Assembly (NCBI RefSeq): GCF_900107095.1 | Contig: NZ_FNOR01000016.1 | Location: forward strand, 62,001 to 126,000 | DNA length: 64,000 bases | Reading direction: 5' to 3' | DNA from: Collimonas sp. OK242 | GTDB lineage: Bacteria > Pseudomonadota > Gammaproteobacteria > Burkholderiales > Burkholderiaceae_D | Shown here: one piece after another, positions 33,434-55,226 of the stretch | How positions within the stretch are numbered: position 1 is the stretch's first letter | Layout of the letters: every line of letters begins with the position of its first letter | Made by a program: the position numbers and the translations under genes | Notes under the pieces: generated by a model | The model's database searches: none | What the model was told of the DNA's origin: nothing | The model's input: the letters and a program-made list of their open reading frames with translations, nothing else

Positions 33434-34354
33434 TCAGCTGCGAGTGAATTTGAGTGCTGATATATCTTCCAAAAGCTTGATGGTGTGATTCAGTGGGTTC
33501 AATACATTGACCTTGAGCTCGGCCCGTACACGAGTGAGATCGAGATTACGTTCTTCTTCGAGCGATTTTTTTAATTGTGCGTCGGTGCTGCCCCCGTCTG
33601 TCGAATGGCGAGAACGCTCACGCCTGACGCCGTCCACGGTATACACAAAACGGTGGAACCACCAGCATTCGCGCTTCTCGCCAATACTTTGGCAGCCGCC
33701 GGCGCTGCGTTGAAAGTCGATTGCTGTGACGCGTTCATCGTTGATGCCAGGCAAGACGTTAACTGCCGCACGTCCGGTTTTTGCCGCATATGCGGCAAAG
33801 TCGGTGAAAGCCTTGAAATCTTTGGCGTCATGACTGCGCAGTGCGTATTCCTGAAGTGCGGTAAGACGCAGAAGAGCGGCGGCTAAGTATGCCTGGGCCG
33901 CTACCGGAAAATTGCGTTCCAGCGCTTCCAGCCGGCCGACCGGAAACACCGTGTTATCGGCCACCATCTTCAATGTGGTTAAGTTGTCCTGAGGCGATGC
34001 GTTATATTCGCGGATCAAGCGCAAGAACGAGTGTACATCCGCGATGAATAATTGCATTTGTTCGTCGTCGATGTGTTGCTTGACCACGTCTCTGATGCCT
34101 GCGATCAGCTCCGTAATATAGGTTTCCAGAGCCAGGTTTGTCGTCTCGAAAATGCTGTCGACACCGCTTGTTCCAATCGAGTGAAGAATATCTTTAGCTA
34201 TTTCCCATGTCTGCGAACATGCAAAAGCCCACGTTGAGGGACTCAGCATGACAATGACGGATCCGTTGTTGACCATCTTGTCCGCAAAATAGATGATCTT
34301 CACGCCATTGTCGGCATCCAGTTCATGGAGCCGAATTTCCTGAGCGTCATTCAT
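33434..34354 (-). CDS. uncharacterised protein preceding PEP synthase
   Basis: A 306-residue soluble, largely helical protein that I do not recognise. It opens MNDAQEIRLHELDADNGVKI. The middle is helical (TLKMVADNTVFPVGRLEAL), and the end carries a charged helix (LKKSLEEERNLDLTRVRAEL). No catalytic motif is apparent. It lies 80 bases upstream of ppsA on the same strand and behind an FNR box at 34462, so it is probably the first gene of the ppsA-CBS operon. Confidence 0.65.
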   Translation of the reverse strand: MNDAQEIRLHELDADNGVKIIYFADKMVNNGSVIVMLSPSTWAFACSQTWEIAKDILHSIGTSGVDSIFETTNLALETYITELIAGIRDVVKQHIDDEQMQLFIADVHSFLRLIREYNASPQDNLTTLKMVADNTVFPVGRLEALERNFPVAAQAYLAAALLRLTALQEYALRSHDAKDFKAFTDFAAYAAKTGRAAVNVLPGINDERVTAIDFQRSAGGCQSIGEKRECWWFHRFVYTVDGVRRERSRHSTDGGSTDAQLKKSLEEERNLDLTRVRAELKVNVLNPLNHTIKLLEDISALKFTRS

Positions 34355-34461: not shown

Positions 34462-34475
34462 TTGATCTAAGTCAA
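34462..34475. promoter_or_regulatory. FNR-type box TTGATCTAAGTCAA
   Basis: One mismatch and identical to the box at 27810. Leftward CTTAAT (reverse strand, 34434-34439) is 32 bases from the centre. It would drive the 306-residue gene, ppsA and the CBS gene. Confidence 0.75.
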
Positions 34476-34524: not shown

Positions 34525-35871
34525 CTATCGCAACCATCCCTTAGCCATAAACGTATAAAGTACGCCGAGAGTCAATACCAGCGTGCCGAAAGCGACCTGC
34601 CCGAGAGTGACCGACCAGGGGGCCTCACCAAGATTCATGCCAAGTAAGCCGCCAATAACTGCCGGGATAAGAGCAAGTGTTGTGACGATAGCAAGCAAGC
34701 GCATAAAGCGGTTTGTGTCGTGCGCCGCAATGTCGAGATGCAGCTCGATCAGCGAAAGTACGGATTCGCGGGCGTTGTCGATGGTCTCGTAAAGATACTC
34801 CGCCTCTTCAGCCAGAGGGACGACAGAGGCGCGCTGGTCCGGGGTGAGCCCGGGCAATTGACGCCGGCCGTCGGCAAGCATCTCGAGCAGTCCGCGCAAG
34901 CGCCAGAGATCTCCTTTGGCCGTTGACAATAGACGTTTGAGATGAAAGGTCTCCCTGAAAAAACTCTCGGGGCTTTCAATCACTGGCAGCGCTTCAAGTT
35001 GGCGTACCATTTGTTCCATCCTGCCAGCCAGTTCCTCGTGCCGGGTGAGCACTTGGCCGATAATGTGAAGCACGCAGCGCGGCCCCCAGGAAAGTGTGCT
35101 GGCCTTCATATGCAGTCGCCGCAGATCGAACGGATGCCGGGAGAGCGACAGTATGCTGTTCTCGGAAATCAGTAGTAAAACCGGTATTCGGTGAGTAACT
35201 TCCTCGGCAGAGGGGAGCGAAATAGTGAAAGCAGTCCAGATCGGGCCCGATTCGATGCGCGGGAAACTCGATTCCAGCAGAGCTGTCTCGATCGTTATCT
35301 GGGAAACTCCCAATGCTAAGGCAATCGCTTTCAAGTGTTCCGGTGAAAGGTTCGACGCGTGAATCCAATCATTTGTCGGCGCGGCAAGCCATTTCCGTAG
35401 CTCATCCCAGCCACATTTGCTGCGCACGGTAGCATCGGACCTCAATATGGAAATTTGTGATTTGCCATCCGCAACGGCAATCGGCGACAGCATGGATGGT
35501 GGTCGCAGGCTGCGCAGAATCCGCGGCCCGAACAGGAGAATGCGAAACAGCCGGAGGATACGCAACGCCGGCGTCGAGCGTGCCCCATGTGAAGCGGCGG
35601 GAATCAAGAAAAGTAGCGGAGCAATGACGATAGCGGCATCCAGCAAGTGCCATGGCTCAAGCGCGAATGCATATCGATTGCTAGATAACATGAAATTCAC
35701 ACCGTACTCGAGTGCGAACAGTCCGATGATCAACCAATTTGCAATATTGAAACTTTGTATGATGCCATGCGGCAGCTTAAACAGGAGCGGGGCGACTCCA
35801 ATACTCAACGACGCGAGCGCCAGGAAGCCCATCGTGGATTCGTTCAATACATCCGAAAGTCGACGTAACAT
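34525..35871 (-). CDS. CorA-family cation channel fused to a voltage-sensor-like domain
   Basis: A 448-residue membrane protein. Residues 10-125 resemble S1-S4 of voltage-gated channels: four hydrophobic helices, Glu55 in the second, Asp78 in the third, and a fourth with Arg at 104, 107, 110, 117, 120 and 123. The rest is CorA-like: an alpha/beta cytosolic domain, a long helix, and two C-terminal helices with the GMN selectivity motif at residues 411-413 (GGLLGMNLGEAPW). No pore helix of a K+/Na+ channel is present. It probably conducts Mg2+ or another divalent ion, perhaps gated by membrane potential. The ATG at 35871 has a weak ribosome site; it follows a universal stress gene by 73 bases. 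Confidence 0.85.
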   Translation of the reverse strand: MLRRLSDVLNESTMGFLALASLSIGVAPLLFKLPHGIIQSFNIANWLIIGLFALEYGVNFMLSSNRYAFALEPWHLLDAAIVIAPLLFLIPAASHGARSTPALRILRLFRILLFGPRILRSLRPPSMLSPIAVADGKSQISILRSDATVRSKCGWDELRKWLAAPTNDWIHASNLSPEHLKAIALALGVSQITIETALLESSFPRIESGPIWTAFTISLPSAEEVTHRIPVLLLISENSILSLSRHPFDLRRLHMKASTLSWGPRCVLHIIGQVLTRHEELAGRMEQMVRQLEALPVIESPESFFRETFHLKRLLSTAKGDLWRLRGLLEMLADGRRQLPGLTPDQRASVVPLAEEAEYLYETIDNARESVLSLIELHLDIAAHDTNRFMRLLAIVTTLALIPAVIGGLLGMNLGEAPWSVTLGQVAFGTLVLTLGVLYTFMAKGWLR

Positions 35872-35944: not shown

Positions 35945-36400
35945 TCAGGCATGCGGCGGATGCCTCACTAGCAAGACCGGTACAGGAGAAGTACGGGCTA
36001 CCAATTCTGCATCGCTGCCCATCAGCATGCGTTCGATACCACGCCGGCCATGCGTGCCCATCACGATCAGATCGGCGCCCGCCGCTAGGGCACGTTCCAC
36101 AATGATGTTCGCCACGCGCCCTCCTGTGATCTCGCGCAGTTCTGTATCAATCGGGACACCCGAAAACGCCATTTTAGCCTGCGCCTTGGCAAGCAATTCT
36201 TCGGCTGCCCTTAATGCATGCGGCCGTATTTGATCGAAGTAGATTGCTGCCTGCTCAAAGCCGTTTGCATAAGCTGTCATATCGAGTACATGCAGCAATT
36301 GCACGCGTGCCGAGCACGTCACGGCAAGTTTTGCCGCTTCCGCGACGGCGCGATCTGAGGTCGGGCTGCCATCAACCGGAACTAGAATTTTTGTGTACAT
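35945..36400 (-). CDS. universal stress protein, ATP-binding UspA/MJ0577 type
   Basis: A 151-residue single-domain universal stress protein. It starts YTKILVPVDGSPTSDRAV and contains the ATP-binding signature MGTHGRRGIERMLMGSDAE (G-x2-G-x9-G-S). The ATG at 36400 follows AAGGAACTTTGATC; longer in-frame starts lack a site. An FNR box 81 bases upstream with a strong TATTAT -10 should control it and the channel gene behind it. Confidence 0.93.
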   Translation of the reverse strand: MYTKILVPVDGSPTSDRAVAEAAKLAVTCSARVQLLHVLDMTAYANGFEQAAIYFDQIRPHALRAAEELLAKAQAKMAFSGVPIDTELREITGGRVANIIVERALAAGADLIVMGTHGRRGIERMLMGSDAELVARTSPVPVLLVRHPPHA

Positions 36401-36480
36401 GATCAAAGTTCCTTGTATAAAAGGCGGTGAACCGGTATGAAGGGCGTATGGAAATAATATCGAGTAATGCCTTGGCAAGC

Positions 36481-36494
36481 TTGATTTGGATCAA
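36481..36494. promoter_or_regulatory. FNR-type box TTGATTTGGATCAA
   Basis: Perfect palindrome. Leftward TATTAT (reverse strand, 36454-36459; five of six to consensus) is 31 bases from the centre, the best class II arrangement in the window. It would drive the universal stress protein and channel genes. Confidence 0.87.
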
Positions 36495-52435: not shown

Positions 52436-55147
52436 TTAGTTCAAACCGAAACGCCGTATCACCCAGGATTTGAGCAATTGCGTCGCCAACAAATAGCCGC
52501 CCAATATGCCCAATAGCGCTAGCCAATAGCCGTGCGGCATCGTTGTCAGGCCGAGTGCGCCGGCCAGCGGCGACCACGGCAGCCACAGCCCCAGCATGCA
52601 AATCGAGACGGTGGTCGCCAGTAGCGGCAAACTGGGCCGGCTTTGGATGAACGGGATTTTGGCGGTACGAATGACATGCACAATCAGCGTCTGCGACAGC
52701 AGCGATTCGACGAACCAGCCAGTCTGGAACATCCGGGGATTCTGCGCCGCACCAAAACCGTACCAGAGGATGCCGAATGTCAGGTAGTCGAACAGGGAGC
52801 TGACCGGTCCCAGGACCAGCATGAAGCGGCCGATGCTGACGATGTCCCATCGGCGCGGCTGTTTCATGTATTCCTCGTCGACGTGATCGGTGGCAACCGT
52901 GGTCTGGGAAAAGTCGTATAAGAGGTTGTTCAACAGGATTTGCACCGGCGCCATCGGCAGGAACGGCAGGAAGCTGCTGGCGCCGAGCACGCTCAGCATG
53001 TTGCCGAAATTGGAGCTGGCGCTCATCTTGATGTATTTGATGATGTTGCCGAACACCTTGCGGCCTTCAAGGACGCCGTCTTTCAAGGTGATCAGACTTT
53101 TCTTCAATAAGATGATGTCGGCGGACTCCTTGGCGATGTCAACCGCACTGTCGACTGAAATGCCGACATCGGCGGCTTTCAGGGCCGGACCGTCGTTGAT
53201 GCCGTCGCCCAGGTAGCCGACCACGTGGCCTCTGCCTTGCAACAGGTGGATGACGCGGGCCTTTTGCTGCGGCGCCAGCTTGGCGAAGATCACGGTGGAT
53301 TCGGCCTTGACGGCAAGCTCCTCGTCGGACATCGCATCCATTTGCCCGCCGAGCAGGATTTGGTCCACGGCCAATCCGACATGGCGCCCGACATTGCAGG
53401 TCACGGCGGCGTTGTCGCCGGTGAGCACCTTGACGGCGATTCCACGCTTGTTCAATGCCTTGATGGCTTCGGCCGCACTGTCCTTGGGCGGATCGAGAAA
53501 GGCGATATAGCCGACCAGGACCAGATCGGCCTCGTCGGCAACGCCGAAGGCGATTTCGCCGGCTGGCAGTTCCCGATAGGCGACGGCGATCACCCTGAAA
53601 CCATCGCTGTTGAGATCTTGCACCGTTTTCCCCAATGCCGCGCCATGATGCTCTTCCAGCGAGATCGCTTGCCCCGCTTGATCGGCTCTGGTGCAAACGC
53701 TCAGGATTTCTTCCACGGCGCCCTTGCAGATCAGGATGCGCGAGCCGTCCCTTTTTTCGACGATGACGGACATGCGGCGCCGCTGGAAATCGAATGGGAT
53801 TTCGTCGACTTTCGTGAACTCCGTATCGGCCTGGATCTTTTCGTGTATGTCGACATATTTCAGTATCGCCACGTCCAGCAGGTTCTTCAGGCCGGTCTGG
53901 TGATAGCTGTTCAGGTAAGCGTATTCCGTCACTTTTTGCGAGTCGTTGCCGAAGATGTCAATGTGCTTTTCCAGGATGACCAGGTCTTGTGTCAACGTTC
54001 CGGTCTTGTCGGTGCATAGTATGTCCATCGCGCCGAAATTCTGGATTGCGTTCAGGCGCTTGACGATCACTTTTTTTCTCGACATTGCCAAGGCGCCTTT
54101 GGCCAGGTTGATCGTCACTATCATCGGCAGCATTTCGGGCGCCAATCCGACCGCCACCGCGACGGCGAACAGCAGGGCTTCCAGCCAATTTCCCTTGGTA
54201 AAACCGTTGACCAAGAAGACCAGCGGCACCATGATCAGCATGAAGCGCATGATCAGCCAGATGAATTTGTTGATGCCGCGATCGAAACTGGTCAATGCCC
54301 GCTGGCCGGCGATATCGGTAGCGACGTGACCGAAGCAAGTCTGGCCGCCGGTGATCGCCACTACCGCGGTGGCGGTGCCGCTGAGGACATTGGTACCCAT
54401 CAGGGCGACATTGCCGAGATCCGTGGCGACACCTGCATGAGAGGGAATGGCCTGGCTGAATTTCTCGACCGGCAAGGACTCCCCGGTGAGGGATGCCTGG
54501 CTGACAAAGAAGTCCTTGCTGGCCAGGATGCGTACATCTGCCGGCACGATGTCGCCAACCGACAGGAAGATGATGTCGCCTGGGACAATCTGAGAAAGCG
54601 CTATGTCGCGCCTGAGGGGAGCGTGCGCCGGCACGGGTTTCGGAGCAGATCCTGGGACCAAGCCTTGCTTCGGCACGTCGCGCCTCAAGACTGTGACCTT
54701 GGTCGCAACCAGGGAGCGCAGGCTTTGAGCCGCCTTGTCCGAGCGATATTCCTGTATGAACGACAAGAGCGAGGAGAGCACCACCATGACGGCGATGACC
54801 AGCGCGCCCCAGCTTTCACCGGTGAAGAAATTGACGACCGCCAGCGCCAGCAGCATGAGCGACAAGGGGCTGGCAAGCAGGCCGAGGAATCGCAGGAAAG
54901 CGCCTTTCCGCACTTCATGCGCCACCAGATTGGGCCCGTATTGCGCCAATCGCCGGCGCGCCTCGCCGTCAAGCAAGCCGTCTGCGGACGATTGCAGGTG
55001 TTTCAGTAGAGCATCGTGATCCAGCGCCGCAATCTGGAACAAGGTATCGCTGGCGCTTTGAGCCGGTGACGGGGTGCCGTGAGAGCCATTCGAGCTGAAT
55101 AGCGGCATTCCTTTTACTATCCTCTGAAGCAACGAAGGGCTTTCCAT
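52436..55147 (-). CDS. mgtA: P-type ATPase, Mg2+ transporter (MgtA/MgtB type)
   Basis: A 903-residue P3B-type ATPase that imports Mg2+. Seen are the phosphorylation motif CTDKTGTLTQD, the hinge GDGINDGPALKAADVGISVD, KVLTGDNAAVTCNVGRHVGL, and the N-terminal Asp/Glu-rich actuator TGESLPVEKF. The C-terminal region has the usual set of helices. ATG 55147 was chosen over 55156 because GGAG is correctly spaced before it. It lies 80 bases behind phaC and may be read from the phaC promoter. Confidence 0.93.
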   Translation of the reverse strand: MESPSLLQRIVKGMPLFSSNGSHGTPSPAQSASDTLFQIAALDHDALLKHLQSSADGLLDGEARRRLAQYGPNLVAHEVRKGAFLRFLGLLASPLSLMLLALAVVNFFTGESWGALVIAVMVVLSSLLSFIQEYRSDKAAQSLRSLVATKVTVLRRDVPKQGLVPGSAPKPVPAHAPLRRDIALSQIVPGDIIFLSVGDIVPADVRILASKDFFVSQASLTGESLPVEKFSQAIPSHAGVATDLGNVALMGTNVLSGTATAVVAITGGQTCFGHVATDIAGQRALTSFDRGINKFIWLIMRFMLIMVPLVFLVNGFTKGNWLEALLFAVAVAVGLAPEMLPMIVTINLAKGALAMSRKKVIVKRLNAIQNFGAMDILCTDKTGTLTQDLVILEKHIDIFGNDSQKVTEYAYLNSYHQTGLKNLLDVAILKYVDIHEKIQADTEFTKVDEIPFDFQRRRMSVIVEKRDGSRILICKGAVEEILSVCTRADQAGQAISLEEHHGAALGKTVQDLNSDGFRVIAVAYRELPAGEIAFGVADEADLVLVGYIAFLDPPKDSAAEAIKALNKRGIAVKVLTGDNAAVTCNVGRHVGLAVDQILLGGQMDAMSDEELAVKAESTVIFAKLAPQQKARVIHLLQGRGHVVGYLGDGINDGPALKAADVGISVDSAVDIAKESADIILLKKSLITLKDGVLEGRKVFGNIIKYIKMSASSNFGNMLSVLGASSFLPFLPMAPVQILLNNLLYDFSQTTVATDHVDEEYMKQPRRWDIVSIGRFMLVLGPVSSLFDYLTFGILWYGFGAAQNPRMFQTGWFVESLLSQTLIVHVIRTAKIPFIQSRPSLPLLATTVSICMLGLWLPWSPLAGALGLTTMPHGYWLALLGILGGYLLATQLLKSWVIRRFGLN

Positions 55148-55226
55148 ATTCTCCATCTCTGCACCCTTAGTAATCTGCTGCTGCGCTCATCCGGAAGTGT
55201 ATGGATTACGTCTTCGCCATTCATCG

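Follow-up and report, generated by a model that had tools for sequence, protein, structure and literature searches.

The 64,000-nucleotide stretch of DNA analysed here (the window, positions 1–64000) carries an ORF encoding 448 aa in which an N-terminal domain of the S1–S4 type found in voltage sensors is followed by a CorA domain. The ORF that had been predicted at 34525–35871 is real, but its strand had to be corrected: the plus strand of this segment is interrupted by stops, and the fusion reads on the minus strand. Judging from its sequence, the gene codes for a metal-ion channel of the CorA type that carries a four-helix, voltage-sensor-like domain at its N-terminus. The features of the locus, all on the minus strand, are the following.

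34525–35871, minus: whole fusion ORF (S1–S4 domain and CorA domain), 448 aa; supported by Pfam and by 11 further intact homologues
35497–35871, minus: S1–S4 voltage-sensor-type domain (residues 1–125); supported by Pfam Ion_trans, a profile search of the PDB and the predicted fold
35782–35841, minus: S1 helix (residues 11–30), with invariant G15, F16, L17, A18, P28 and F31 and no acid within the helix
35686–35769, minus: S2 helix (residues 35–62), with the charge-transfer centre motif F52-x-x-E55
35605–35655, minus: S3 helix (residues 73–89), with W74 and D78
35509–35571, minus: S4 segment (residues 101–121), with R104, R107 and R110, then G115 and R117; low model confidence
35458–35508, minus: cytoplasmic linker (about residues 122–138), variable
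34528–35457, minus: CorA domain (residues 139–448), comprising the cytosolic alpha/beta domain, the stalk and two TM helices
34645–34821, minus: stalk helix continuing into TM1 (residues 351–409)
34633–34641, minus: GMN signature (residues 411–413), invariant
34543–34605, minus: TM2 (residues 423–443)
35945–36400, minus: universal stress protein gene (usp), with its ATG at 36400, upstream of the fusion gene across a 74-bp gap; probable operon partner
36454–36459, minus: -10-like TATTAT, which by its sequence would put the FNR box at about -41
36481–36494, minus: perfect FNR box TTGATCCAAATCAA upstream of usp

Both halves of the protein were recognized by Pfam, with Ion_trans matching residues 39–113 (31.1 bits, cut-off 25; E 1.7e-7) and CorA (PF01544) matching residues 168–441 (97.1 bits, cut-off 27; E 1.5e-27), and the same two families were matched by 11 of 11 members of the family alignment (A3). 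In NCBIfam, CorA and a voltage-gated K+ channel family were hit weakly and below the cut-off. Thus, the original prediction of an S1–S4-type domain joined to a complete CorA domain with GMN is borne out by two above-threshold Pfam domains in one ORF. S4 is followed by the linker and the CorA cytosolic domain, and the S5-P-loop-S6 pore of 6-TM channels is absent.

The fusion is not confined to this locus. We counted 12 distinct intact fusion genes (the window, L003, L048–L053, L055, L056, L057 and L059) and 2 damaged ones, a number of intact genes that rules out an assembly or frameshift artefact. The other 11 are full-length and 34–79% identical to the window protein, a recurrence beyond what chance would give. 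Among 15 genomes of the genus, one other full-length copy was found (L003, 79% identity); 393 genomes of the family yielded no further copy, 399 genomes of the order two more (66% and 55% identity), 369 genomes of the class one (43% identity in the voltage-sensor domain, VSD), and 299 genomes across the phylum only the fusion of the window itself. Across 84,980 species genomes, 12 fusion loci came up, three of them genes already found in the narrower scans. These counts are lower bounds, as short peptide patterns that must match exactly are the starting point of the scan. The sources are mostly metagenome bins, and the hosts include Betaproteobacteria (Burkholderiales, Nitrosomonadales, Sterolibacterium), Chromatiales, Planctomycetota, Limisphaerales/Verrucomicrobia and a deltaproteobacterial bin; L048, labelled Acetobacteraceae and located on a 3.7-kb contig, may be misbinned. 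Two further candidates were discarded, L068 (a 550-aa frame) being an ordinary CorA and L060 a K+ channel.

In a maximum-likelihood tree of the CorA parts of the 12 fusions and 26 ordinary CorA proteins, all fusions fell on one side of a single branch (100/100), with 1 label change compared with a mean of 10.4 after shuffling. None of the 26 CorA proteins, a limited sample mostly from one order, was an unfused close relative placed inside the fusion clade. Most likely, the fusion goes back to a single, old origin and has since been retained or handed on sporadically. No match was found in plasmids, nor in viral contigs searched with two queries, which speaks against a plasmid- or virus-borne gene. 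The fusion gene is rare and in one bin it is broken by two early stops and a frameshift (L054, 6001–7300), so it is dispensable; the second damaged copy (L058) is truncated or misassembled. L052, a close relative of the L054 bin, carries an intact gene. Two side observations from a look at the sequence concern other fusion loci: in Limisphaerales the fusion gene (L056, 5804–7036, minus strand) is directly followed by an ORF reading like acetate kinase, and in island G009 an acetate-kinase-like gene lies ~11 kb from the fusion.

The S1–S4 domain retains much of what characterizes a voltage sensor. The residues invariant in the 11 aligned members, down to 34% identity, include F52, E55, Y56, W74, D78, L103, R104, R107, G115 and R117. 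In voltage sensors, an F-x-x-E motif in S2 and an Asp in S3 make up the gating-charge transfer centre. The centre as such is described in PMC13095418, and PMC10620092 cites Tao et al. 2010 for it. The Ion_trans match spans S2–S4 only; the assignment of S1 rests on conservation and on the predicted fold. In S4 of voltage sensors, Arg or Lys recurs at every third residue, usually four times or more. The fusion protein has three Arg in this spacing, R104, R107 and R110, the last kept in 9 of the 11 members and replaced by Ser in L051 and L052; R117 is out of register, and Pro101 stands where Kv channels have their first Arg. R120 and R123 drift among the 11 members and are not to be counted as gating charges. 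Of the charges named in the original prediction, E55, D78, R104, R107, R117 and, with its two exceptions, R110 thus hold, whereas the series of six S4 arginines shrinks to three in regular spacing and R117 beyond them.

A profile of the S1–S4 domain searched against the PDB retrieved Cav, Nav and Kv chains, with a best whole-chain E-value of 3.8e-18, which is summed over four repeats, and a best single-repeat i-E of 2e-6. The domain predicted alone (pLDDT 67.5) superimposed on Kv4.2 (Z 12.2, rmsd 2.9 A, 119 residues), Nav1.7 (Z 11.9, rmsd 2.7 A, 118 residues) and Ci-VSP (Z 11.2, rmsd 2.9 A, 118 residues), and all 50 matches listed (VIA) were VSD proteins. Foldseek returned the same kinds of protein with modest E-values (best 0.022); we drew no conclusion from families missing in the fold lists. 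The models place a short helix (residues 66–71) between S2 and S3 and S4 at about residues 102–121; S4 is their least certain part, with pLDDT of 35–45 in the full-length model and about 49–62 in the domain alone. Z-scores below 13 are weak evidence by themselves for a helical bundle, but together with the sequence evidence the predicted S1–S4 fold is convincing. Thus, profile and predicted fold both point to the voltage-sensor domains of Kv, Nav and Cav channels, and the anticipated likeness of residues 1–130 to such domains was recovered as a four-helix VSD fold, with moderate model confidence overall and low confidence in S4.

Several S1–S4 domains of the same fold do not sense voltage, and the main rival explanation is that the one described here is among them, serving as an additional membrane anchor, as a module for assembly or for binding a partner, or as a lipid, pH or ligand sensor on an otherwise ordinary CorA. 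The few regularly spaced S4 charges, the Pro at the first Arg position, the R110S replacement in two members and the low-confidence S4 of the models would all suit such a module. It would, however, have no need, as an anchor, for the invariance of F52, E55, D78, R104 and R107 in all 11 members, which held while other charged positions near the same helix drifted. The pattern of conservation favours voltage sensing, whereas the small number of charges does not, and we regard a non-sensing module as possible, if doubtful.

The CorA part is conventional in architecture and divergent in several details. A profile of residues 131–448 matched Thermotoga CorA over the whole length (E about 2e-22), the best matches being the CorA proteins of Thermotoga and Methanocaldococcus. 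The model of residues 127–447 aligned with Thermotoga CorA over 313 residues (Z 23.9; rmsd 8.8 A overall), and the model of the CorA part fitted the soluble domain of M. jannaschii CorA with an rmsd of 3.0 A over 237 residues. In Thermotoga CorA, D89 and D253 form the M1 metal site (PMC3629940), and D253K is reported to abolish Mg2+ regulation, as cited in PMC4504495. The equivalents of these two aspartates are not conserved in the 12 fusion proteins, where they are T, A or K and P, S, R, Q, I, D, L or V, respectively; the D277 position is acidic in all 12 members, and 10 of them retain N288. The loss of D89 and D253 fits a changed control of the gate, although it is no proof of one, since these positions may vary in other CorA subgroups as well. 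The GMN signature is followed by a family motif, PWxxTLxQVxF (x-x-x-P-W-x-x-T-L-x-Q-V), in place of the acidic loop of Thermotoga CorA. The genome encodes one other CorA, of the ordinary type (GMNFIEMP) and on a different contig; the fusion is thus an extra copy.

This family-specific loop, so unlike the acidic Thermotoga type, and the matches of the CorA part to ZntB and CmaX leave room for a second alternative, in which voltage would modulate the protein but its CorA part would serve for export or for a different metal (Zn2+, Co2+ or Ni2+), as ZntB-type members do. The ZntB and CmaX matches are far weaker than those to CorA itself (2e-4 for ZntB vs 2e-22), and the island that holds the gene also encodes an MgtA/MgtB-type Mg2+ P-type ATPase (52436–55156, minus strand; 1148 bits). 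We consider this alternative unlikely. The ATPase suggests that Mg2+ handling is part of the programme of the island.

The surroundings of the gene bear on when it would be expressed. No terminator-like site lies between usp and the fusion gene on their common strand. A box centred at about -41, as placed here from the -10-like TATTAT, lies where FNR usually activates. The usp promoter was not reported by a consensus sigma-70 scan; because promoters activated by FNR can do without a -35 element, we read this promoter from the box and the -10 only. The window contains 12 perfect TTGATNNNNATCAA FNR boxes, compared with about 0.08 expected, together with genes for an Fnr/Crp regulator, a NarX-like kinase, Hsp20, PHA synthase, PEP synthase, an S30AE ribosome factor, DnaK and Usp, and is, on this gene and motif content, an FNR-rich island of the anoxia/starvation type. 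Between the fusion gene and the PEP synthase gene lies a 306-aa ORF (33434–34354, minus strand) that matched nothing in Pfam or NCBIfam; an FNR-like box with 1 mismatch (34462–34475) is found ahead of it. The L003 locus similarly has 10 perfect FNR boxes in 40 kb and adjoins genes for an Fnr-type regulator and Hsp20. In contrast, no perfect FNR box was found near the distant fusion members, which moreover share no conserved neighbour that could serve as a functional clue. Thus, the proposed link with anoxia is supported by the FNR boxes at the window locus and around L003 and does not extend to the distant members, and expression of the fusion under anoxia is likely a feature of the genus rather than of the whole family.

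Taken together, these observations lead us to propose, with a probability of about 0.5, that the fusion gene encodes a divalent cation channel of the CorA type that is modulated by voltage and produced under anoxia. FNR would probably switch the gene on when oxygen is lacking, together with that of the universal stress protein. The product would be a pentameric divalent-cation channel of the CorA superfamily, probably for Mg2+, whose opening the membrane potential may modulate through the N-terminal VSD. S4, with R104, R107 and R110 and with R117 at its inner end, would move through the centre formed by F52 and E55 of S2 and D78 of S3. The short linker (about residues 122–138) would couple the cytoplasmic end of S4 to the CorA cytosolic alpha/beta domain, and the motion of S4 could push or pull the cytosolic ring, in a manner similar to that in which the VSDs of Ci-VSP and SLC9C1 act on effectors other than a 6-TM pore. 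The topology fits such coupling: a VSD of four helices begins and ends on the cytoplasmic side, which is also where the N-terminal domain of CorA belongs. In ordinary CorA, whether the cytosolic domain opens or closes the pore depends on the Mg2+ bound to it; with the Mg-sensing aspartates missing, voltage may partly replace this feedback. Because cation entry is driven by the inside-negative potential, opening and closing on depolarisation are both plausible.

The selectivity Asp of the proton channel Hv1 sits in the middle of S1. That the S1–S4 domain is itself an Hv1-like proton (or omega-current) pathway, with CorA as a separate channel or regulator, would accord with its lack of an S5-S6 pore of its own and with the ability of VSD-only proteins to conduct protons (PMC13095418), but is very improbable given that the 11 members have no conserved acid inside S1 (helix 11–30) except E/D11 at its cytoplasmic end, and hence none where Hv1 has its selectivity Asp.

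Tentatively, and at somewhat less than even odds, we envisage a pentameric CorA pore placed under five VSDs, instead of or besides cytosolic Mg2+, which in some bacteria would set divalent-cation flux by the membrane potential when respiration stops. If voltage gating is true, the fusions would form a new class among voltage-gated channels, and CorA would be a new effector of VSDs, with five-fold vs four-fold symmetry. The fusion would then offer a simple bacterial system in which to study the control of an unrelated pore by a VSD, and would allow direct tests of whether Mg2+ entry is linked to the membrane potential in bacteria short of oxygen. Should the domain turn out not to sense voltage, the family still reveals which VSD residues persist without a canonical pore.

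Known voltage sensors belong to 6-TM channels, a phosphatase and one Na+/H+ exchanger, or function as proton channels. Each half of the fusion protein belongs to a known family, and what would be new is the combination. In agreement with the original prediction, which knew of no such protein, no paper describing a VSD-CorA layout was found among the open-licence papers searched; an automatic listing of Ion_trans with CorA may exist somewhere.

The fusion resembles the CorA Mg2+/Co2+ channels of T. maritima and M. jannaschii in its cytosolic alpha/beta domain, the stalk leading into TM1, GMN, TM2 and a basic C-terminus, but differs from them in the additional N-terminal S1–S4 domain, the absence of D89/D253, the other post-GMN loop and its placement in a clade of its own. 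Among unfused matches, its nearest VSD sequences are those of bacterial voltage-gated K+ channels (such as L060 and L062, with the TVGYG filter), with which it shares F-x-x-E-Y in S2, W..(x)D in S3 and the R-x-x-R-x-x-R register in S4; the first S4 Arg of these channels and the Lys after the third have been lost, and their S5-P-S6 pore is replaced by CorA. Like Hv1, the fusion has a VSD with no S5-S6 pore domain; unlike Hv1, it has no conserved acid inside S1, and its VSD is joined to CorA. According to PMC10620092, no transporter other than SLC9C1 is known to be under the control of voltage-sensing domains. As in Ci-VSP and SLC9C1, the VSD of the fusion is attached to an effector other than a 6-TM pore and, as in Ci-VSP, a short linker joins S4 directly to a cytosolic domain. 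Unlike in these two proteins, the effector belongs to a pentameric channel family rather than being an enzyme or an exchanger, S4 carries fewer charges, and the protein is bacterial.
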